This document shows, in pieces, positions 3,875-23,305 of a stretch of 28,055 nucleotides of DNA; the first letter of the stretch is position 1; each line of letters starts with the position of its first letter. Source of the stretch: a virus. The notes under the pieces are model-generated. The model saw only the letters and a list, made by a program, of their open reading frames with translations, made no database searches and was not told where the DNA came from. Location of the stretch: the IMG/VR virus record IMGVR_UViG_3300036766_002289, positions 1 to 28,055 of that record; one strand, written 5' to 3'. The position numbers and the translations under genes are program-made.

Positions 3875-4798
3875 ATGAAGAATCATTGGTTAAATAAGAA
3901 AAAAGAGAAAGAAGAAGATTTTGATATAGAGTTGGCTTATAGTGAAATAACACCAGGCTTACGGCCTGTATGCATTTCTGGCATCGTAGACCCAACGCTA
4001 ATATCGGTTCAAACAGTTACTATTTCTCCACCTTTTGGGAATGCCCTTCTTAACGTATATGGGTATGTTGATGCGTATTGTAGTATTATACCCCCGTCTA
4101 GCATCGCAGACCCTACCTTGATAACGGTTCAAACAGTCTCATGTATGGATTTTGAGCCAGGTCAGACCGCACTATCAGAATTAGATGACTTTGCTAAACA
4201 TCATGTATCCCCTGCTGGATTTGGTGGTCGTGATTGCTCACCCAATTTAGAGATTGGTGATGGTAGTATGAAGTATACAAGGGAAATCCAGCTTGGCCCT
4301 TTCACTTTTAAGGACAGCGATCTTGGGATTGATATATTTTTGAATGATGTAAGAATGGGCTGGCTCAATTGTAGGGGTGAGGAAAGTTTATTTGCTTGGT
4401 TGAAGGAAAAGCACACTGCCAAGCAAGATGGCCCAGATCAAAACTATTGTTTGAAGAGTCTTTCCAATTACTCCATCAGCTGCACTTGCAGGGACACTCT
4501 GTTTTCAGAAGAATTGGTCTTATTTGGGAGAATACCAGACGGATATGATGGAGATTTAGGTGAGAGTTTTTATAAATTTGACCATGATAATGTTGTTCCT
4601 GGAAGTTTAGTGGTAACTTTTAATGGGAAAATAGTTCAAATACCAGCTTACGGTCACGAAGTTTGTGCAGAACTATTTGATATAGGCGTAAAAACCATTA
4701 GTGTTGATTACAATAAAGGAAATATTTCAATAGAATGGTCTAAAACACCTGGGGTAATTAACGTTAATCTGCAATATGAATATGAGGTTAAAGTATGA
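3875..4798 (+). CDS. Unknown protein with internal repeat and MKNHWL tag
   Basis: A 307-residue protein. Residues about 36-90 contain an imperfect duplication, seen as IVDPTLISVQTV and IADPTLITVQTV about 40 residues apart; the matching DNA (CGGTTCAAACAGT twice) shows a tandem duplication. The rest is beta-rich with scattered cysteines. Its first residues, MKNHWLNKK, match those of the protein encoded at 7990 on the minus strand (MKNHWLQKA), although the bodies do not look alike. This suggests a short shared tag. A structural role is possible but not shown. AAAGGAAC precedes the start. Confidence 0.6.
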   Translation: MKNHWLNKKKEKEEDFDIELAYSEITPGLRPVCISGIVDPTLISVQTVTISPPFGNALLNVYGYVDAYCSIIPPSSIADPTLITVQTVSCMDFEPGQTALSELDDFAKHHVSPAGFGGRDCSPNLEIGDGSMKYTREIQLGPFTFKDSDLGIDIFLNDVRMGWLNCRGEESLFAWLKEKHTAKQDGPDQNYCLKSLSNYSISCTCRDTLFSEELVLFGRIPDGYDGDLGESFYKFDHDNVVPGSLVVTFNGKIVQIPAYGHEVCAELFDIGVKTISVDYNKGNISIEWSKTPGVINVNLQYEYEVKV

Positions 4799-6143: not shown

Positions 6144-6486
6144 TGATGTTATAGATTTGCTTAATAGGATTAAGTGCTGTGTAGATGATGACGAACTTCG
6201 TGTTGGATGTGGTTTTATTCCACACGGTAGTTCAAGACATTGGATTTTTCACGGCTCATATGATGTTTTAGAGAATGCTGCTGATGCTCGCATTTATGAA
6301 AAAGTCATGAATGATAGGTTGAATGAAGCTAAAGCATTAGGCTTAATCATTAACCAAACTGGTAAGGAAAAATGGTTGGTGAGTGAAAATTGGTTACTCA
6401 CTGAAGCTGGTGAGGCGTATCTTGGCCAGCGCACAAGGGGAAAGATAGTAGAGGATGAACCTAAAAGTAATTTTGGATTTGAATAA
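6136..6486 (+). CDS. Unknown protein, possible winged-helix fold
   Basis: A 116-residue protein. The start at 6136 is chosen because AAAGGATG lies just upstream; an in-frame ATG at 6100 lies deep in the preceding gene. The C-terminal half (NEAKALGLI, then WLLTEAGEAYL) has the helix-turn-strand pattern of small winged-helix domains, but this is weak evidence. The stop overlaps the next ATG as TAATG. Confidence 0.5.
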   Translation: MNNDVIDLLNRIKCCVDDDELRVGCGFIPHGSSRHWIFHGSYDVLENAADARIYEKVMNDRLNEAKALGLIINQTGKEKWLVSENWLLTEAGEAYLGQRTRGKIVEDEPKSNFGFE

Positions 6487-7268
6487 TGAACCGTAGAGAA
6501 TTTTTAAAGACTTCTGCTGCAATAGCGGTTACTGCTGCCATACCTATGGATATTATGGCAACAGAAACAAAAAGTCCTTTTATTGACTTCGCAGAAAAGA
6601 ATTTCAAAATAAATCATTGGGAAAAAGGTCTTATTCCTTATGAAAGTACTAAACATCATAAAGAATTAGCCAAAATCTATGATGATGAAAGATTTGTATT
6701 AGTAAAGAAGTATAGACAAGGTGGTTTTACTACTATGTCTGTACTTTATGCATTACATCAATGTCTAACTAAGATTGATTTTAGGTGTGCGTTTATCTCA
6801 AAATATGACAGTATGTCTAGGGCTGTTAAGGAGCGTATCATTAATCCCACCTTAGATTTAATGAGTTATTTAAAGCCAGATATTAAAAGAAGTAACAGTC
6901 ATTTGTTAGAATTTGAGCATGGTAGCAGGATTGATTTTCGCTGTGCAAGTAACCTTTGTGGTTGTGGTGTGAGAACTGACTTGTTCATATTTGATGAAGC
7001 TGCGTTTATAGGAAAAATGGACGAATTATACGCAGCAATTTATCCATGTGCTTCGATGGGTGGCAAGATATTTTTGGTCTCGACCCCGAATAGGCCAAGA
7101 GAATTTTTCTATAAAACCTATGAAGCGGCAATGAAGGGTAAGAACAAATATAAAGTATACGCCCCGAGTTGCTTTGAACATCCAAACTATACGCCAGAGA
7201 AAATTGCGTTGCTAAAAGGATATCTTGGTGAGAAGGGTTGGAAACAAGAGTGTTTGGCTGAATTTTAA
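6486..7268 (+). CDS. Terminase large-subunit-like ATPase domain with Tat-type leader
   Basis: Residues 60-260 match the N-terminal ATPase of phage DNA-packaging terminases. They show a deviant Walker A (VKKYRQGGFTT), a middle segment ending SKYDSMSRAVKERII, Walker B with catalytic Glu (DLFIFDEAAF) and the coupling motif KIFLVSTPNRP. The protein stops at CLAEF, where full terminases continue into an RNase H-like nuclease domain, which is missing. The first 24 residues (MNRREFLKTSAAIAVTAAIP...) form a textbook twin-arginine signal, which makes no sense for a cytoplasmic packaging motor. It may be a paralogue exported or membrane-attached, a split terminase, or a chance leader. The next in-frame Met codons lie at 6546 and 6555, without a clear ribosome site. 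Confidence 0.75.
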   Translation: MNRREFLKTSAAIAVTAAIPMDIMATETKSPFIDFAEKNFKINHWEKGLIPYESTKHHKELAKIYDDERFVLVKKYRQGGFTTMSVLYALHQCLTKIDFRCAFISKYDSMSRAVKERIINPTLDLMSYLKPDIKRSNSHLLEFEHGSRIDFRCASNLCGCGVRTDLFIFDEAAFIGKMDELYAAIYPCASMGGKIFLVSTPNRPREFFYKTYEAAMKGKNKYKVYAPSCFEHPNYTPEKIALLKGYLGEKGWKQECLAEF

Positions 7269-7279
7269 GATGAACCTTA

Positions 7280-7990
7280 TTAACAATGAATGCTAAATGG
7301 ATTGATCTTAGAAACATAGTCTTCAACTTGTTTTTTGATGTCGCTCATTATTTCTTCTATTAATCTTCTATCACAGTCTTTCTTCCATTGCTCTGTCCAC
7401 AAACGTCCATCATGTTGTCCATCATATTGAATTTTTAGCTTAATGTCTAGAGTTTCTTGCGGCAAGAATGTATCTGGGTTTAAAGTTACTTGTGGATTTG
7501 CTACTGCTGATACGTTGTATTGAGGGCTGAACCATCTTGGTCTACCTGGAAAATATTCTGGGATTATATTATAACCATCTAAGCTATTATCAATCTGAAT
7601 TCTGAATTCAGCAAAAGTAAATACTTCATAATCGTTCCAGAGTCTGTCTAGGGTTACAACATACCAGTTATGTCCATCATCAGTACTGTAACGGTCACTG
7701 ATTTTACCAGTTAGTTTTCCTGATTCCACGTCTACCATCACACGACTACTTATTTCATGCATGAATGGCTTGAATTCCACATCTTTAGGTTGTTTGCCAA
7801 AATAGGTTAACTTAATAATTTTCCTGTCGTCCATAGCATTCTCTATTGCGATTATATCTAAAGCATCACTACATTTTATCATGTCTTTTATTATGGTTGC
7901 TTTTTTAAGTTCCGCTATAATTTCCTTATCTATTTCTTTTGTAATCTGAGTGGGAATGTCTTCAGCCTTTTGTAACCAATGATTTTTCAT
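7280..7990 (-). CDS. Probable late protein with MKNHWL tag, unknown
   Basis: A 236-residue protein with a charged helical N-terminus, then a beta-rich body with aromatic residues and a C-terminal amphipathic helix. The late box CTATATTA ends 4 bases before the ATG with no Shine-Dalgarno site. Its first six residues are identical to those of the protein at 3875. A virion role is plausible from the promoter class; no family recognised. It is convergent with the terminase-like gene, 11 bases apart. Confidence 0.65.
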   Translation of the reverse strand: MKNHWLQKAEDIPTQITKEIDKEIIAELKKATIIKDMIKCSDALDIIAIENAMDDRKIIKLTYFGKQPKDVEFKPFMHEISSRVMVDVESGKLTGKISDRYSTDDGHNWYVVTLDRLWNDYEVFTFAEFRIQIDNSLDGYNIIPEYFPGRPRWFSPQYNVSAVANPQVTLNPDTFLPQETLDIKLKIQYDGQHDGRLWTEQWKKDCDRRLIEEIMSDIKKQVEDYVSKINPFSIHC

Positions 7991-8079: not shown

Positions 8080-8691
8080 ATGGGTACTAAAACAATTTGG
8101 CTACAAAAAAGAAAGAAAGATGGTAAGTGCTTGCAATGCGGGAAGCTATCTGGCCCTAAATCTAAAGTTTATTGTAATAAATGTTTGATGAAATTCAATG
8201 ATAACTCTAAAAAACGTGTCAAAAAATTGTTAGAACAAGGTCTTTGTGCGCAATGTAGGAAGCCTTCAGATAAGCGTGTATGTCGAGATTGTAGTGATAA
8301 AAATAATACGAGAAGAATGGAAAAATTTAAAGTGAGGGAAAGTGCTGGCATCTGTATCAGATGTGGGAAAATGCCATCCGTATTAAATAATAGAAAATGC
8401 ACTGTTTGCTGTTTGAAACATAGTGCATGGACATATTTTCGTGATGGCAACAAATGGGTAAATTTACAAGAATTGTTTGATAGCCAAAAAGGCTTATGTC
8501 CTTATACGGGTAGGCAGTTGACAATAGGCTTAGATGCAGAAATTGACCATATCATCTCAAGGCATCAAGGTGGGAAAGATGAAATCTCTAATTTTCAGTG
8601 GGTGTATCGTGATATAAACAAAATGAAGGCTCATCAATCTCATGAACAATTTATTGATTTGATACGCGAGGTAGTCCAGTATTGTCTGTAG
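8080..8691 (+). CDS. HNH endonuclease with zinc-finger N-terminus
   Basis: A 203-residue protein. The N-terminal 120 residues contain several CxxC pairs (CLQC, CNKC, CAQC, CRDC, CIRC, CTVC), forming probably three zinc knuckles for DNA binding. The C-terminal HNH nuclease core has EIDHIISRHQGG followed by NFQWVYRDINKMKAH. Free-standing phage HNH enzymes of this type are usually homing endonucleases. The late box CTATATATA ends 4 bases before the ATG and no ribosome site is seen. It starts MGTKTIWLQKRK; the WLQK echoes the MKNHWLQK tag of the divergent neighbour. The 3' end overlaps the convergent gene by 41 bases. Confidence 0.85.
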   Translation: MGTKTIWLQKRKKDGKCLQCGKLSGPKSKVYCNKCLMKFNDNSKKRVKKLLEQGLCAQCRKPSDKRVCRDCSDKNNTRRMEKFKVRESAGICIRCGKMPSVLNNRKCTVCCLKHSAWTYFRDGNKWVNLQELFDSQKGLCPYTGRQLTIGLDAEIDHIISRHQGGKDEISNFQWVYRDINKMKAHQSHEQFIDLIREVVQYCL

Positions 8692-15717: not shown

Positions 15718-16733
15718 AAAAAGTAATTATAACTGGAATCGGTGGTTTTGTTGGCGCACATGTTTTAGAATATTTCCTAGAAAAAACAGATTGGAATATC
15801 ATAGGGATAGATTCTTTCCGACATAAAGGTACTTACAGCCGCATTAATGAAATAGTTGGTTATAATGTTGGCCGAGTAAAAATATTTAACCATGATCTAG
15901 TGGCACCTATTGATATCCAACTAGAAAACCAAATTATAGGCAAGACATTAGAAAGTAACGGCAAACCCGTTGATTATATCATCAATATAGCTTCCGACAG
16001 TGCAGTAGAACGTTCAATTACAGACCCAGGCCCATGCTGGATGAATAACTGTAACTTGATGTTTAATATGCTGGAGTTTAGCAGAAGAGTTAAACCTAAG
16101 TTATTTTTGCACTTTAGTACGGATGAAGTTTATGGTGAAGCCGCACCAGACAAAGCACATCATGAATGGGACGTAATTCTACCTTCAAACCCTTATAGTG
16201 CAAGTAAAGCAGCACAGGAAGCATTAGCAATCTCGTATTGGCGAACTTATGATGTTCCATTATTGTTGCTTAACGTAATGAACATTATTGGTGAATGGCA
16301 AGATAAGGAAAAGTTCCTGCCTAAGTTGATTTATAAAGTGGCTACATGCCAGAAAATGCAGATTTATGGAGAGCCAGGCAAGATTGGTTCTCGTTTCTAC
16401 ATACATGCTAACAATATAGCTGATGCAATTATCTATTTATCTGATTTTGAGCCAGTCAAATATGGGACTCATCAACGACCAGATCGCTATAATGTTGTTG
16501 GAGATATGGAATTAGACAATTTGCAAATGGCACAGTATGTTGCCAAGATCATTGGCCAACCACTTAATTACGAATTAATCCCTTCTGAGATAGCAAGACG
16601 TGGCTATGACAAGAGATATGCTTTGGATGGCAGCAAACTGAAAAGATTAGGTTGGAAACATCCAAAATCTACGTTAGACTCGATTGAGCAAATTGTTAAA
16701 TGGACTATGGAACACCCCCATTGGTTGGTATAA
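15714..16733 (+). CDS. NAD-dependent nucleotide-sugar epimerase/dehydratase (extended SDR)
   Basis: A 339-residue protein. The NAD-binding GxxGxxG is GIGGFVG (residues 7-13). The catalytic STDEVYGE segment lies at about 138-145 and the YSASK Tyr/Lys pair near 162-166, with a C-terminal sugar-binding domain containing GSRFYIHANNIADAI. The TDE triad points to dTDP-glucose 4,6-dehydratase-like enzymes rather than plain epimerases. It would supply a deoxy-sugar nucleotide for the phage glycosyltransferases; that link is inference. Confidence 0.88.
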   Translation: MKKVIITGIGGFVGAHVLEYFLEKTDWNIIGIDSFRHKGTYSRINEIVGYNVGRVKIFNHDLVAPIDIQLENQIIGKTLESNGKPVDYIINIASDSAVERSITDPGPCWMNNCNLMFNMLEFSRRVKPKLFLHFSTDEVYGEAAPDKAHHEWDVILPSNPYSASKAAQEALAISYWRTYDVPLLLLNVMNIIGEWQDKEKFLPKLIYKVATCQKMQIYGEPGKIGSRFYIHANNIADAIIYLSDFEPVKYGTHQRPDRYNVVGDMELDNLQMAQYVAKIIGQPLNYELIPSEIARRGYDKRYALDGSKLKRLGWKHPKSTLDSIEQIVKWTMEHPHWLV

Positions 16734-16735
16734 AA

Positions 16736-17302
16736 ATGAACAGAAGAACTTTTATCAAAACGGCAGCAATTAGTAGTGCGGCTTTAATGACTGGTAATTT
16801 AGCAATTGCTGCGACAGAGCCAATAAAATATGACTTTATTGAGCCAAAGTATTTGCTTCATATTTTGAAGAAACTGAGAGAATATCCTAGTAGATCGACG
16901 GATTATGATAGTCCAGTGTCGTCATCAATTTCTGAAATGTACAAAAATTATTGCTATATTACCCCAGAAATGATGAAGTTTGAAGAAAAGATTTATATTC
17001 CATTAATTGGAATTTCTAACATTCTCAGGCGTACAACACTTGGGGAGAATTCAACTGTAGATAAGACTTGGGTAGTTTTGAGTGAATCAGAAATTGATTT
17101 GTTTAATTTTACTGGTTCTAGTTTAAAACACCAAGAAACGGGGCATCCTTTAATGAAATATTGGGGTGCATGTTGTTGTGCGTGGCCACTTTATACATAT
17201 AAATATTGGCCCAAGGGATGGTTCTTATTAGGTCATGGGAAAGTTTTAAGGAAAAAAAGAAGTCAGTATGCTACGTTGCAAGTTAAGAGGAAAGAAAAAT
17301 GA
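16736..17302 (+). CDS. Tat-leader protein, unknown
   Basis: A 188-residue protein with a twin-arginine leader (MNRRTFIKTAAISSAALM) and a signal-peptidase-like AIAATE near 30. The start at 16736 restores this leader; a longer frame from 16700 would overlap the upstream gene. The mature part has a CCC cluster (WGACCCAWPLY, about residue 146) and a basic C-terminus. With the terminase-like gene at 6486 it is one of two proteins here that start MNRR(E/T)F(L/I)KT. The Tat pathway exports folded proteins, so a periplasmic role is possible; the body is not recognised. Confidence 0.65.
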   Translation: MNRRTFIKTAAISSAALMTGNLAIAATEPIKYDFIEPKYLLHILKKLREYPSRSTDYDSPVSSSISEMYKNYCYITPEMMKFEEKIYIPLIGISNILRRTTLGENSTVDKTWVVLSESEIDLFNFTGSSLKHQETGHPLMKYWGACCCAWPLYTYKYWPKGWFLLGHGKVLRKKRSQYATLQVKRKEK

Positions 17303-21123: not shown

Positions 21124-21241
21124 GAGTGGGTAGCTAAAAGATTGCTTTGGCAACTTAGACAAGTAATTGTCTCCAACCCTGAAGCTTACAAGCACTAGTA
21201 TTTGAAACTAAAGAATGTTGGTTCAAGTCCAACCCCACTCG
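21124..21241 (+). tRNA. tRNA-Gln-like (UUG) gene with a Y-type helix in its D-loop
   Basis: Acceptor stem GAGTGGG/CCCACTC, T-arm GTTGG-TTCAAGT-CCAAC and an anticodon arm with loop ATTTGAA (anticodon TTG) are clear. The D-stem is reduced to GCT (21133) and AGC (21191-21193), and the D-loop lacks GG. In its place sits a hairpin of the repeated Y motif (21144-21185) followed by TTACAAGC. Total length is 118 bases. Either the insert is removed to give a tRNA, or, more likely because no proper D-loop remains after removal, this is a tRNA-mimic RNA like the bacterial YrlA class. Confidence 0.7.
21144..21193 (+). ncRNA. Y-type Ro-binding helix, copy 1 (inside tRNA-Gln-like)
   Basis: Outer stem GCTTTGG/CCTGAAGC, then CAACTT, inner stem AGACAA/TTGTCT closed by GTAA, CCAA, and TTACAAGC after the outer stem. 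The octamer has one change from the consensus TTACAAAC. Confidence 0.7.
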
Positions 21242-21248
21242 CTTAGTA

Positions 21249-21326
21249 GCGTCCCCTAAAGGAAGAACTTACAAACAACAGGAATATGTTAAAAATAGTT
21301 CTTTAAACTTGGACGCAACTTTTTTT
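21249..21326 (+). ncRNA. Stand-alone Y RNA, copy 2
   Basis: 5' GCGTCC pairs with 3' GGACGC (21311-21316) to form the terminal stem. Inside are CCTAAA on the 5' side and AAACTT on the 3' side, then stem GTTCTTT/GGAAGAAC, and a loop beginning TTACAAAC and holding a small hairpin (AACA/TGTT). A seven-T run follows. Terminal paired ends, a purine-rich 5' bulge opposite ACUU and a U-tail are the layout of Y RNAs. This is the circular permutation of copies 1, 3, 4 and 5. Confidence 0.75.
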
Positions 21327-21335
21327 GAAAAGAAC

Positions 21336-21363
21336 TTGACAAGGATAGGAAAAGTAGTAAGAT
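21336..21363 (+). promoter_or_regulatory. Promoter of the tRNA-Lys/Y chimera
   Basis: TTGACA, 16 bases, TAAGAT, about 14 bases before the tRNA gene at 21378; resembles the promoter at 21080. Confidence 0.62.
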
Positions 21364-21377
21364 AAGGAAGTAACGCT

Positions 21378-21501
21378 GGGGGATAAAGAAAGCTTTCGCA
21401 ACTTGGACAAGAAATTGTCCCCAACGGTTTGAGCTTACAAACTTTTAGGTAAAGAAAAGACTTTTAATCTTTTTAAATCGGTTCGACTCCGATATCCTCC
21501 A
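21378..21501 (+). tRNA. tRNA-Lys (UUU) interrupted by a Y-type helix after the acceptor stem
   Basis: Acceptor GGGGGAT/ATCCTCC with discriminator A, D-arm CTTT-TAGGT-AAAG with GG present, anticodon arm AAAGA-CTTTTAA-TCTTT (anticodon TTT) and T-arm ATCGG-TTCGACT-CCGAT. All arms are intact, but about 55 extra bases, including a Y motif hairpin and TTACAAAC, lie between acceptor base 7 and the D-stem (around tRNA positions 8-9). Removal of the insert would leave a normal tRNA-Lys, so this one could be processed; no known intron class fits. Confidence 0.75.
21392..21442 (+). ncRNA. Y-type Ro-binding helix, copy 3 (inside tRNA-Lys)
   Basis: Outer stem GCTT..TCG/CGG..GAGC with a small bulge, CAACTT, inner stem GGACAA/TTGTCC with a GAAA tetraloop, CCAA, then TTACAAAC. 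It shares GCTTTNGCAACTT with copy 1. Confidence 0.7.
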
Positions 21502-21504
21502 CTA

Positions 21505-21568
21505 AGGCTTTCACTGAGCCTAGATTTTGTGTGACGGTCGCCTAGACCCAGAGCAAAACGATCAGTGA
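21505..21568 (+). ncRNA. Possible pseudoknotted RNA A
   Basis: Hairpin AGGCT-TTCACTG-AGCCT, then TTTTG/CAAAA enclosing GGTC/GACC, and TCAGTGA (21562-21568) complementary to the first hairpin's loop region (21511-21517). Seen by eye only; could be a spacer with chance pairing. Confidence 0.3.
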
Positions 21569-21626
21569 TAAACGGGGTTTAAAAAGGCTGGATTATGGTT
21601 GACGATAGCGGCAGATTTTACTATTT

Positions 21627-21677
21627 GCTGCTAAAACTTAGACAGGAAACTGTCTCCAAAAGTAGTAGCTTACAAAC
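21627..21677 (+). ncRNA. Y-type helix, copy 4 (not in an evident tRNA)
   Basis: Outer stem GCTGCTA/TAGTAGC, AAACTT, inner stem AGACAG/CTGTCT with a GAAA loop, CCAAAA, then TTACAAAC. The flanks (21569-21626 and 21678-21735) show no tRNA arms that I can find; CGG 21609-21611 and CCG 21677-21679 could close it. The RNA may extend further on both sides. Confidence 0.68.
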
Positions 21678-21735
21678 CGAATATAACTTTAAGATTTAAC
21701 CAAGAGACTAAATAAAATGAACAGTAGTTAAAAAT

Positions 21736-21806
21736 GGGGCTATAGTGAAGCGGGATCACGTTAGAATGGCATTCTGAAATCTGGGGTTCAAATCCCCATA
21801 GCTCCA
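21736..21806 (+). tRNA. tRNA-Ala (GGC)
   Basis: Ordinary cloverleaf: acceptor GGGGCTA/TAGCTCC with discriminator A, D-arm GTGA-AGCGGGA-TCAC, anticodon arm TTAGA-ATGGCAT-TCTGA (anticodon GGC), T-arm TGGGG-TTCAAAT-CCCCA. No CCA is encoded. Confidence 0.82.
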
Positions 21807-21807
21807 C

Positions 21808-21869
21808 TCGGGACTGTACGTTCTTTCCGCAGTTGGATATGTCGCTTGAACGGAACCAACCAGTCCTGA
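21808..21869 (+). ncRNA. Possible pseudoknotted RNA B
   Basis: Outer stem TCGGGACTG/CAGTCCTGA (9 pairs), inner stem CGTTC/GAACG, and GTTGG in its loop complementary to CCAAC just 3' of the inner stem, an H-type pseudoknot. It fills exactly the gap between tRNA-Ala and tRNA-Cys. No known class recognised. Confidence 0.4.
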
Positions 21870-21872
21870 ATT

Positions 21873-21944
21873 GTCTGGGTAGCCAAGCGGTAAGGCATCA
21901 GTCTGCAAAGCTGAATAGCGTAGGTTCAAATCCTACCCCAGACT
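21873..21944 (+). tRNA. tRNA-Cys (GCA)
   Basis: Acceptor GTCTGGG/CCCAGAC with discriminator T, anticodon arm TCAGT-CTGCAAA-GCTGA (anticodon GCA) and T-arm GTAGG-TTCAAAT-CCTAC. Its last 12 bases overlap the 3' end of the convergent endonuclease gene. Confidence 0.87.
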
Positions 21945-22529
21945 TATTATTTCTGTTATGTGTTTTTTAATTTGTAGGAATGCTTCTTTAACGTAATGTT
22001 CTTTAGATACTAAGTCAGGGACAACAATTAGGTTTATATGGTTTTGATTTGCTAAGGCTAGTTTTTCTTTGTCTCTTTCTTGTATTCTGTTCAACTTGTT
22101 TTGGCCGTAAATTGGTTTGAAATGTACGATGCCGTTCCATTCTATTGCTAATTTTATAGATGGAATAGCAATGTCTACTTCATAACCAGGCAATAGAGTT
22201 TTATCATTAGGTATTATCTCCAATGATTGAAATTCTTCCTTTAAAAGGTCAAACAATATTTTTTCGCATCTTGAACGACGGGATTTACGTTTTTTAGTAT
22301 TATTGAAGGTTGTGGCGCAAGATTTACTACAAAAGGTGTTGGCTTTGATTTCGCTTGGGCGTCTGTAGAATTTTTCACCGCAAAGATGACAAGATACTTC
22401 TAGTTTTGTTTGGGTGTATGACGAAGAACATTTTCTTGAACAAAAAGGATTATTTCTTTTTTTGTAGTTTGATGTTCTTGAGAATTCTCTTTTGCAAAAG
22501 GTGCAGATAAGTTTGTGTGTTAATAGCAT
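21933..22529 (-). CDS. Vsr-like/EDxHD-type homing endonuclease with zinc fingers
   Basis: A 198-residue protein. Two N-terminal Cys modules (CTFC...FCSRKC and CHLC...FCSKSC) are followed by a basic linker and a nuclease domain: SRCEK (Glu), YEVDI (Asp), IEWNGIVHF and ERDKEKLALANQN, the layout of Vsr-fold phage endonucleases. The ATG at 22529 is chosen over 22637 because the late box CTATATAA ends 5 bases upstream and the longer frame would run through another promoter. The stop lies inside tRNA-Cys, a typical homing-endonuclease neighbourhood. Confidence 0.78.
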   Translation of the reverse strand: MLLTHKLICTFCKREFSRTSNYKKRNNPFCSRKCSSSYTQTKLEVSCHLCGEKFYRRPSEIKANTFCSKSCATTFNNTKKRKSRRSRCEKILFDLLKEEFQSLEIIPNDKTLLPGYEVDIAIPSIKLAIEWNGIVHFKPIYGQNKLNRIQERDKEKLALANQNHINLIVVPDLVSKEHYVKEAFLQIKKHITEIISLG

Positions 22530-22534
22530 ATATA

Positions 22535-22542
22535 TTATATAG
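22535..22542 (-). promoter_or_regulatory. Late promoter box CTATATAA
   Basis: Late-type box ending 5 bases before the endonuclease ATG, with no Shine-Dalgarno site. Confidence 0.5.
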
Positions 22543-22582
22543 TAGGATTGGAACGTTTCTGAACCTACTGCTGACTTTTGAC

Positions 22583-22610
22583 TTGACAATGCGGAAAGTT
22601 GTGGTATAGT
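22583..22610 (+). promoter_or_regulatory. Sigma70-type promoter of the small beta-grasp-like gene
   Basis: TTGACA, 16 bases, TATAGT, followed at once by AAAAAGGAGGG, an unusually strong ribosome site. The transcript may continue into the second half of the RNA locus. Confidence 0.78.
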
Positions 22611-22629
22611 AAAAAGGAGGGAAGGAAAA

Positions 22630-22863
22630 ATGGACAATCAAGTATTAGACGCGGTTCCTCAGATTCACATTCGCTACGACGGACGTAGCATTGATATTCC
22701 TTTGAGCGAAGTGGACATTGGTGTTTTGTCTACCGACGATCAGATTCGCAACGCAGTTGCGGAAAACATGGGCGTTCCAGTAGCTAAGCTCCGCGCTTTT
22801 GCTATTGATAAGAACGTAGAAACGAATCACATCACGCTTCGACCAGAAGCTGTGTTTGGTTGA
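22630..22863 (+). CDS. Small protein, possible ubiquitin-like beta-grasp fold
   Basis: A 77-residue protein. The strand-turn-strand QIHIRYDGRSIDIPL, helix DDQIRNAVAENMGVPVAKLR and final strand HITLRPEAVFG give a beta-beta-alpha-beta order. GVPVAKLRAF sits where ubiquitin has GIPPDQQRLIF. No C-terminal Gly-Gly is present; it ends in a single Gly. It has its own strong promoter and ribosome site, host-like codons (CGC, CGT) and lies inside the tRNA/Y RNA locus, so it may belong to the Ro/Y system. The fold call is inference. Confidence 0.55.
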   Translation: MDNQVLDAVPQIHIRYDGRSIDIPLSEVDIGVLSTDDQIRNAVAENMGVPVAKLRAFAIDKNVETNHITLRPEAVFG

Positions 22864-22874
22864 GATTTTTTAAT

Positions 22875-22944
22875 CCCCAGGCATGGGGCTGACTTGGTGG
22901 GGAGTTCCGAAAGGAATTACCAAGTGATAGTTTGAAACCATGCC
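22875..22944 (+). ncRNA. Structured RNA C between the small gene and the next chimera
   Basis: Nested stems GGCATGG/CCATGCC (22880 and 22938), ACTTGGT/ACCAAGT (22892 and 22919) and AGTTCC-GAAA-GGAATT. CCCC at 22875 could pair with GGGG at 22899 (pseudoknot) or locally at 22885. The three nested stems are strong for such a short stretch. It may be the 3' end or terminator of the preceding mRNA or an independent RNA. Confidence 0.5.
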
Positions 22945-22948
22945 AATT

Positions 22949-23078
22949 GCAGGAGTAGCTGAAAAGTTAATAGTTTTTTGTACTTGGACGGTTTAAACCC
23001 GTCCCCGACTTAAAAAACTTACAAACAAGCGTCAGTAACCTAAACTGAAGAATGTAGGTGCGAATCCTACCTCCTGCT
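22949..23078 (+). tRNA. tRNA-Arg-like (CCU) gene with a Y-type helix in its D-loop
   Basis: Acceptor GCAGGAG/CTCCTGC, T-arm GTAGG-TGCGAAT-CCTAC and anticodon arm TCAGT-AACCTAA-ACTGA. The loop has A instead of the invariant U33, and the D-stem is again only GCT/AGC with a Y motif hairpin as its loop. Variable loop AGAAT equals that of the chimera at 21124. The missing U33 and missing D-loop GG argue for a non-decoding tRNA mimic. Confidence 0.7.
22973..23026 (+). ncRNA. Y-type Ro-binding helix, copy 5 (inside tRNA-Arg-like)
   Basis: Outer stem GTTTTTT/AAAAAAC, GTACTT, inner stem GGACGG/CCGTCC with a seven-base loop, CCGACTT, then TTACAAAC. It departs most from CCAA but keeps ACTT, the inner stem and the octamer. 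Confidence 0.68.
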
Positions 23079-23084
23079 CTTTAT

Positions 23085-23164
23085 TCCGTCTCCTAAATGG
23101 AAAACTTACAAACAATGCAATGAATAGTTTAAATAGTTTTCTGAACTTAGACGGATTATTTTTA
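23085..23164 (+). ncRNA. Stand-alone Y RNA, copy 6
   Basis: Terminal stem TCCGTCT/AGACGGA, CCTAAAT on the 5' side and GAACTT on the 3' side, upper stem GTTTTCT/GGAAAAC, and a loop starting TTACAAAC. An AT-rich T-run (TTATTTTTATTTT) follows. Same order of parts as copy 2. Confidence 0.74.
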
Positions 23165-23178
23165 TTTTAAGTGACTTG

Positions 23179-23305
23179 TTTTGTCTCCAATGATGGGAAC
23201 TTACAAACAATTTGCTCAATGGTAGAGCATCAACTTTAGACGTTGAAGAGTGTTGGTTCAATTCCAACATTGTTTTCCAAAACAGTTTTCATGACTTAGA
23301 CAAAA
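23179..23305 (+). ncRNA. Y RNA copy 7 carrying a complete tRNA as its loop
   Basis: Terminal stem TTTTGTCT/AGACAAAA, CCAAT on the 5' side and GACTT on the 3' side, upper stem GTTTTCAT/GATGGGAAC, then TTAC followed directly by a tRNA (23205-23276). The octamer's AAAC is also the first four bases of the tRNA acceptor. This is the plainest tRNA-plus-Ro-helix layout in the window. Confidence 0.74.
23205..23279 (+). tRNA. tRNA with UAG anticodon inside Y RNA copy 7
   Basis: Acceptor AAACAAT/ATTGTTT, discriminator T, encoded CCA (23277-23279), D-arm GCTC-AATGGTA-GAGC, anticodon arm TCAAC-TTTAGAC-GTTGA (anticodon TAG, Leu CUA) and T-arm GTTGG-TTCAATT-CCAAC. The variable loop is five bases (AGAGT), whereas true tRNA-Leu has a long arm, so its charging identity is uncertain. 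Confidence 0.75.

Follow-up and report, generated by a model that had tools for sequence, protein, structure and literature searches.

The terminase-like gene and its leader

The window analysed here is a stretch of 28,055 nucleotides within a 390,039-bp viral record (G000). On its plus strand, an open reading frame (ORF) at 6486-7268 encodes a protein of 260 aa, whose N-terminus reads MNRREFLKTSAAIAVTAAIPMDIMATETK and is followed by a terminase ATPase domain. The elements of this ORF are the following:

6486..6557 (+), Tat-type leader MNRREFLKTSAAIAVTAAIPMDIM, with twin arginine, phenylalanine at +2 and an uncharged h-region
6558..7268 (+), ATPase domain of a large terminase subunit (TerL) without nuclease, paralogous to but diverged from the TerL of this phage (33% identity)
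6708..6734 (+), Walker A motif KYRQGGFTT, conserved with complete TerLs
6960..6965 (+), A-R of the near-invariant A-R-G before Walker B (columns A159 and R160), lost
6981..6998 (+), Walker B and catalytic Glu, LFIFDE, conserved
7080..7085 (+), Ser-Thr of the coupling motif (STPN), conserved

The body of the protein is matched by the PHROG family terminase large subunit (E 1.1e-21), and positions 64-297 of the clade TerL profile correspond to residues 31-260 (E about 1e-41 to 1e-45). An AlphaFold model of modest confidence (pLDDT 62) has the ATPase domain of T4 gp17 as its best Foldseek match (E 2e-13, TM 0.72). Alignment with ten complete TerLs reveals that K75, R77, Q78, G80, T82, T83, D170, E171, S199 and T200 are kept. 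The A-R-G is retained in the complete TerLs, whereas the ORF has SNLCGCGVR at that place. The P74-26 terminase has a trans-acting arginine (PMC5727402), and the arginine lost here would fall at or near the same region, a placement that is inferred and not a superposition. The protein ends at residue 260 with ...QECLAEF, the stretch after which complete TerLs continue into the nuclease, and the RNase H-type nuclease domain is missing. Since an opposite-strand gene starts 12 bp past the stop codon, no nuclease is hidden 3' of the ORF.

The leader was detected with Pfam TAT_signal in a six-frame search of the whole viral record, which scored 6486-6542 at 25.3 bits against a cut-off of 22.7. Only two matches were obtained in the six frames of the genome, of which this one is the best and the other (16733-16795) also lies in the window; scored as a single protein, the ORF reaches 21.7 bits, slightly below the cut-off. 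Reading of the sequence yields IMA/TE as the only candidate for an A-x-A-type site. The start codon overlaps the stop of the upstream ORF (TAATG), so that no upstream extension is possible, and in-frame Met codons follow at 6546 and 6555. Local similarity between the leader DNAs of the two Tat-leader ORFs in the window is unconvincing as a sign of recent copying, and a promoter scan returned no more sites than shuffled sequence. Searches of viral contigs and bacterial genomes revealed no close relatives of this exact protein. The preliminary description of the locus, a TerL ATPase domain that begins with a Tat leader and ends where the nuclease should begin, is thus borne out by TAT_signal, PHROG and the clade TerL profile.

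A complete terminase elsewhere in the genome

The same phage encodes a complete, leaderless TerL of 614 aa at 368 kb, in which the genome's single nuclease match falls. The ORF shares 33% identity with this protein over residues 32-260. A split terminase, which had been among the options proposed earlier, fails on a search of the genome for a complete TerL or a free nuclease half: the presence of the complete TerL and the status of the ORF as a diverged paralogue rule it out, and with a complete leaderless TerL in the same phage the ORF is neither half of a split enzyme nor the packaging motor. Sequence comparison instead identifies it as a duplicated TerL ATPase domain, in which the N-terminal region of about 65 residues has evidently been swapped for a Tat leader and the nuclease has gone.

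A second, short TerL copy is absent from all 19 related records examined. The ORF shares 37-38% identity with the TerLs of other clade phages, slightly more than the 33% it shares with the TerL of its own phage. This difference is unreliable because the ORF sits on a very long branch (1.76) of a phylogeny in which it takes no firm position. Compared with T4-type gp17/TerL, the fold of the ATPase domain and the ATP-site motifs are shared, whereas the nuclease and A-R-G are lost, the N-terminal region is replaced by the Tat leader and a complete TerL is encoded elsewhere in the same phage. The twin-arginine n-region and the uncharged h-region (Pfam TAT_signal) are also found in bacterial Tat substrates, but here the predicted cargo is a phage packaging domain and not a cofactor enzyme.

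Further Tat-leader genes in this phage and a relative

Called ORFs of G000, of the related phage LR756511 (W01), whose TerL is 67% identical to that of G000, and of ten other related records were scanned for twin arginines (RR) followed by an uncharged hydrophobic stretch. This filter is a regular expression and not a trained predictor, and some of its matches are clearly not Tat leaders; gene calls are greedy ORF picks, and G000 and several contigs are perhaps incomplete. The following RR-leader ORFs carry bodies that resemble virion or packaging proteins:

G000 6486, TerL ATPase body
G000 69954, C-terminus of the portal protein (E 3e-25)
G000 63495 and its W01 counterpart 224453, mosaic of gp13 and portal, 42% identical over the full length, leader included
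W01 410484, portal segment
W01 217923, gp15 tail-sheath stabiliser (E 6e-27)
W01 242240, prohead protease (E 3e-28)
16736..17302 (+), the other ORF of the window with a Tat leader (MNRRTFIKTAAISSAALMTGNLAIA), weak likeness to the phage's major capsid protein (C-terminal half)
W01 220448, capsid and neck motif, weaker match
W01 129141, gp13-linked family via intermediates, weaker

G000 and W01 together have 14 RR-leader ORFs, of which 7 give confident matches to virion families, against 22 of the 1,714 other genes, which include normal full-length virion genes (Fisher 5e-10, an indicative value, as the choice of families followed the first matches). None of the 58 ORFs with Sec/TM-type leaders in the two genomes has a virion-family body (2e-6 versus RR leaders). 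In the mosaics, the order of the gp13 and portal pieces is permuted relative to the parent proteins. The capsid match of the second ORF in the window is weak, with an in-order score of 4.9 where 300 shuffles reach at most 2.2. Enrichment of cysteine as a mark of export is not observed (2.2% versus 1.8-2.1% in the proteome), and the closely related phages G003, G010 and G017 are without Tat-leader genes for virion pieces. The preliminary description had treated a single case, which holds; the complete TerL and the further Tat-leader ORFs derived from other virion genes lay beyond it. W01 also contains a Tat-leader ORF with five cysteines (157861-158208, minus strand), for which the only related protein is a small one encoded at W01 331122 (E 1e-5).

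The copied prohead proteases carry altered motifs. In the W01 protein, ELGMP stands in place of ELDHP, which is invariant in nine normal proteases, and SSRG has become RSRG. A second Tat-leader protease, encoded on the contig G023 and homologous to the W01 copy (E 7e-10), likewise has GMP at the ELDHP position. In the S77 family, the His and Ser at these places are established as the catalytic pair, and both proteins look like inactivated mimics as judged from their motifs.

Tat-leader genes in other phages

Three scans of IMG/VR used the leader only as query and ignored the body, with the third covering the matches listed. Tandem clusters with 14 RR-leader ORFs occur on the contig G019 (84.5 kb), six such ORFs lie on G020 (36.7 kb) and nine follow one another on one strand of G023 (138 kb) at 91-102 kb; a few further entries in the RR lists of these contigs are spurious ORFs. 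These three contigs share genes with the large clade of G000 and are not fully independent of it. Several genes in the arrays have the leader MNRRDFLKGTAAAGAAAVLPLSIL in common while differing in their bodies; ten copies of the leader DNA have a mean identity of 90% and a pN/pS of 0.36 over 45 pairs, a ratio that points to constraint at the protein level. The bodies comprise capsid pieces, near-complete capsid proteins without the insertion domain, neck pieces and a protease, and one Tat body of G023 is a DnaB-like helicase ATPase, so that the class is not strictly one of virion proteins.

Outside the clade, Tat-leader ORFs among the matches listed resemble the major head protein (L279, L400, L367) or a virion structural protein (L284), mostly with weak scores. 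Full-length TerLs behind Tat leaders are present in unrelated phages, namely L249 and the pair L337/L345, among the matches listed. The complete TerL of L249 lies in the TerS-TerL-portal region of a 42-kb contig (G026), in which no second TerL was found; the leader of the L337/L345 TerL has a dN/dS of 0.23 based on few changes. The PHROG families with a named function that are hit by 68 Tat ORFs all belong to head, packaging or tail, a tally that is influenced by the preference of PHROG naming for such genes, and family scans gave no name to several Tat bodies. Two further Tat-leader ORFs from contigs classified as viral, L352:2015-3241 (+) and L361:4042-5280 (+), resemble DUF1501 proteins of host type, which hints at Tat-rich hosts, e.g. 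Planctomycetota.

Taken as sequences, these genes well support a class of phage genes, including ORF 6486-7268, in which a Tat leader is joined to recycled and often incomplete pieces of core proteins: terminase, portal, neck, capsid, prohead protease, tail terminator and, once, a DnaB-type helicase ATPase. The class was previously unnoticed; the open-access literature yielded no precedent for a leader fused to a phage core piece, and an older or closed paper could exist. A Tat leader in front of a virion-protein piece offers a search handle for such genes, which current annotations label terminase, capsid or hypothetical.

A possible mimic directed to the Tat pathway or the membrane

The reading we favour, tentatively, is that ORF 6486-7268 encodes a mimic that engages a partner of the real terminase and is not a DNA motor; of the options in the preliminary description, a paralogue that is secreted or held at the membrane and has taken on a new role fits best. 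As a proposed mechanism, the Tat leader would take the folded ATPase domain to the Tat receptor or the inner membrane, perhaps across it, and the terminase-like surface would bind a cytoplasmic partner that recognises or works with genuine terminase. This partner might be removed from play by tethering or by co-export as a Tat 'hitchhiker', while the leaderless TerL at 368 kb would package the DNA. A host immune sensor would be the likeliest partner because Avs-type sensors recognise terminase and portal, followed by a packaging factor of a competitor or satellite. Avs1-4 recognise TerL and portal (PMC12931631), and Tat transports folded proteins together with bound hitchhiking partners (PMC4273604, PMC6708511).

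The favoured mimic gains support from the complete TerL elsewhere in the genome, from the loss of the nuclease and A-R-G alongside intact ATP-site motifs and from the apparent inactivation of both GMP-bearing Tat-proteases. The enrichment of virion bodies behind RR leaders (7/14 versus 22/1,714), the constraint on the shared leaders (pN/pS 0.36), the inclusion of TerL and portal, the targets of Avs1-4 (PMC12931631), among the copied proteins and the capacity of Tat for folded cargo with riding partners (PMC4273604, PMC6708511) also argue for it. The two triggers of Avs (AVAST), terminase and portal, are the same two proteins that are copied behind the leader; Avs itself is a sensor of the host, whereas a phage decoy for it is what we infer. 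Several observations count against the mimic: the one TerL found in G026 bears a Tat leader, so full export cannot be its meaning there; the retained ATPase motifs would be useless in the ATP-free periplasm; cysteine enrichment that would mark an oxidising destination is absent; and the DnaB-like body makes the class not purely virion. The wider proposal, in which arrays of Tat-tagged mimics of terminase, portal, capsid, protease and neck proteins allow large phages to neutralise immune sensors in the cytoplasm by pulling them to the Tat translocon or through it, i.e. immune-receptor removal by hitchhiker export, is distinctly doubtful. If the pattern is real, phages apply the folded-protein export route of the host to duplicates of their packaging and capsid components, be it as immune decoys exported with their sensor, as a membrane address for head assembly or as a factory of exported effectors made from virion genes.

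Alternative explanations

Next in plausibility, though doubtful, is a membrane-docking tag: the leader would keep assembly and packaging proteins on the inner face of the membrane and would not translocate them, and the Tat-tagged pieces would locally nucleate or regulate the assembly of the portal vertex. T4 proheads begin on the inner membrane from a membrane-bound portal (PMC9958956, PMC4493910), and the T4 portal initiation complex (gp20, gp40, YidC), from which head assembly starts at that membrane, supplies a possible reason for a membrane tag; it differs in that gp20 is without a recognisable transmembrane sequence (PMC4493910). The tagged bodies are portal-vertex and head proteins. Unrelated phages have complete TerLs behind Tat leaders, and the one of G026 is the sole TerL found there and lies in a TerS-TerL-portal region. 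Quantitative export would make that protein useless, and for this reason the earlier option of a leader reused as a binding tag may apply. Shuffled mosaics with permuted gp13 and portal pieces are, however, a poor design for assembly factors, G003, G010 and G017 assemble without such genes, and one body is a DnaB-like ATPase. A mimic at the Tat receptor or membrane would fit the paralogues, where a normal copy usually exists, whereas the complete Tat-TerLs would argue for docking at the membrane instead; both could be true, in different phages.

Rather doubtful is the view that phages build new exported effectors out of virion genes, with a Tat leader that truly exports the folded domain and a new function unrelated to packaging or virions. 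Common leaders with bodies shuffled within tandem arrays, virion-gene fragments behind other N-termini such as MKN[HY]WL and the very long branch of the TerL copy agree with this, but it leaves the over-representation of virion and packaging proteins behind the leader unexplained, and the kept ATP-site motifs and the lack of cysteine gain count against it. That the tagged fragments poison a competitor or satellite, co-assembling with or trapping the homologous subunits of a rival and blocking its packaging, is improbable. In its favour, the bodies are fragments of oligomeric proteins without catalytic parts, and the TerL copy is slightly closer to other clade TerLs than to its own; against it, the long branch undermines that difference (37-38% versus 33%) and self-poisoning must be avoided. 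Chance or decay, with the true start at a downstream Met or a dying duplicate and a meaningless leader, is very improbable. The Met codons at 6546 and 6555 and the lack of a close relative of the exact gene in viral contigs or genomes would suit it, whereas the above-cut-off TAT_signal score in the genome search, the coupling of the start to the upstream stop, the intact ATP motifs, the constrained leaders of relatives and the recurrence of leader and core-protein piece in this genome and others all speak against it.

Other features of the window and related genomes

A second N-terminal tag, MKN[HY]WL, recurs on otherwise different proteins, two of which are encoded in the window:

3875..4798 (+), MKNHWL-tag ORF, C-terminus weakly like the capsid insertion domain (E 0.005)
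7280..7990 (-), MKNHWL-tag ORF adjoining ORF 6486-7268, body without identified family

Elsewhere in G000 the tag is found at 49579, 50028, 383198 and 383585, and in relatives at W01 306665, G003 199338 and G010 21317, 45608, 63512 and 162703. Three of these proteins carry fragments of the capsid insertion domain (E < 1e-9). Eleven fragments of the major capsid protein that have no leader are spread over four of the five genomes surveyed (G000 49579, 50028 and 155149; W01 125926, 195953, 306665, 430481 and 588119; G017 46019 and 177667; G010 244431). The portal ORF of G000 (372360-374927, 855 aa) contains a long intein-like insert ending in VHNC, and the portals of relatives are of similar length. 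At 0.8 kb downstream of ORF 6486-7268, an ORF (8080-8691, plus strand) that combines repeats rich in cysteine with an HNH-like motif may encode a homing-type endonuclease, and four tRNA matches, one of them marginal, lie at 21181-23276 (+).
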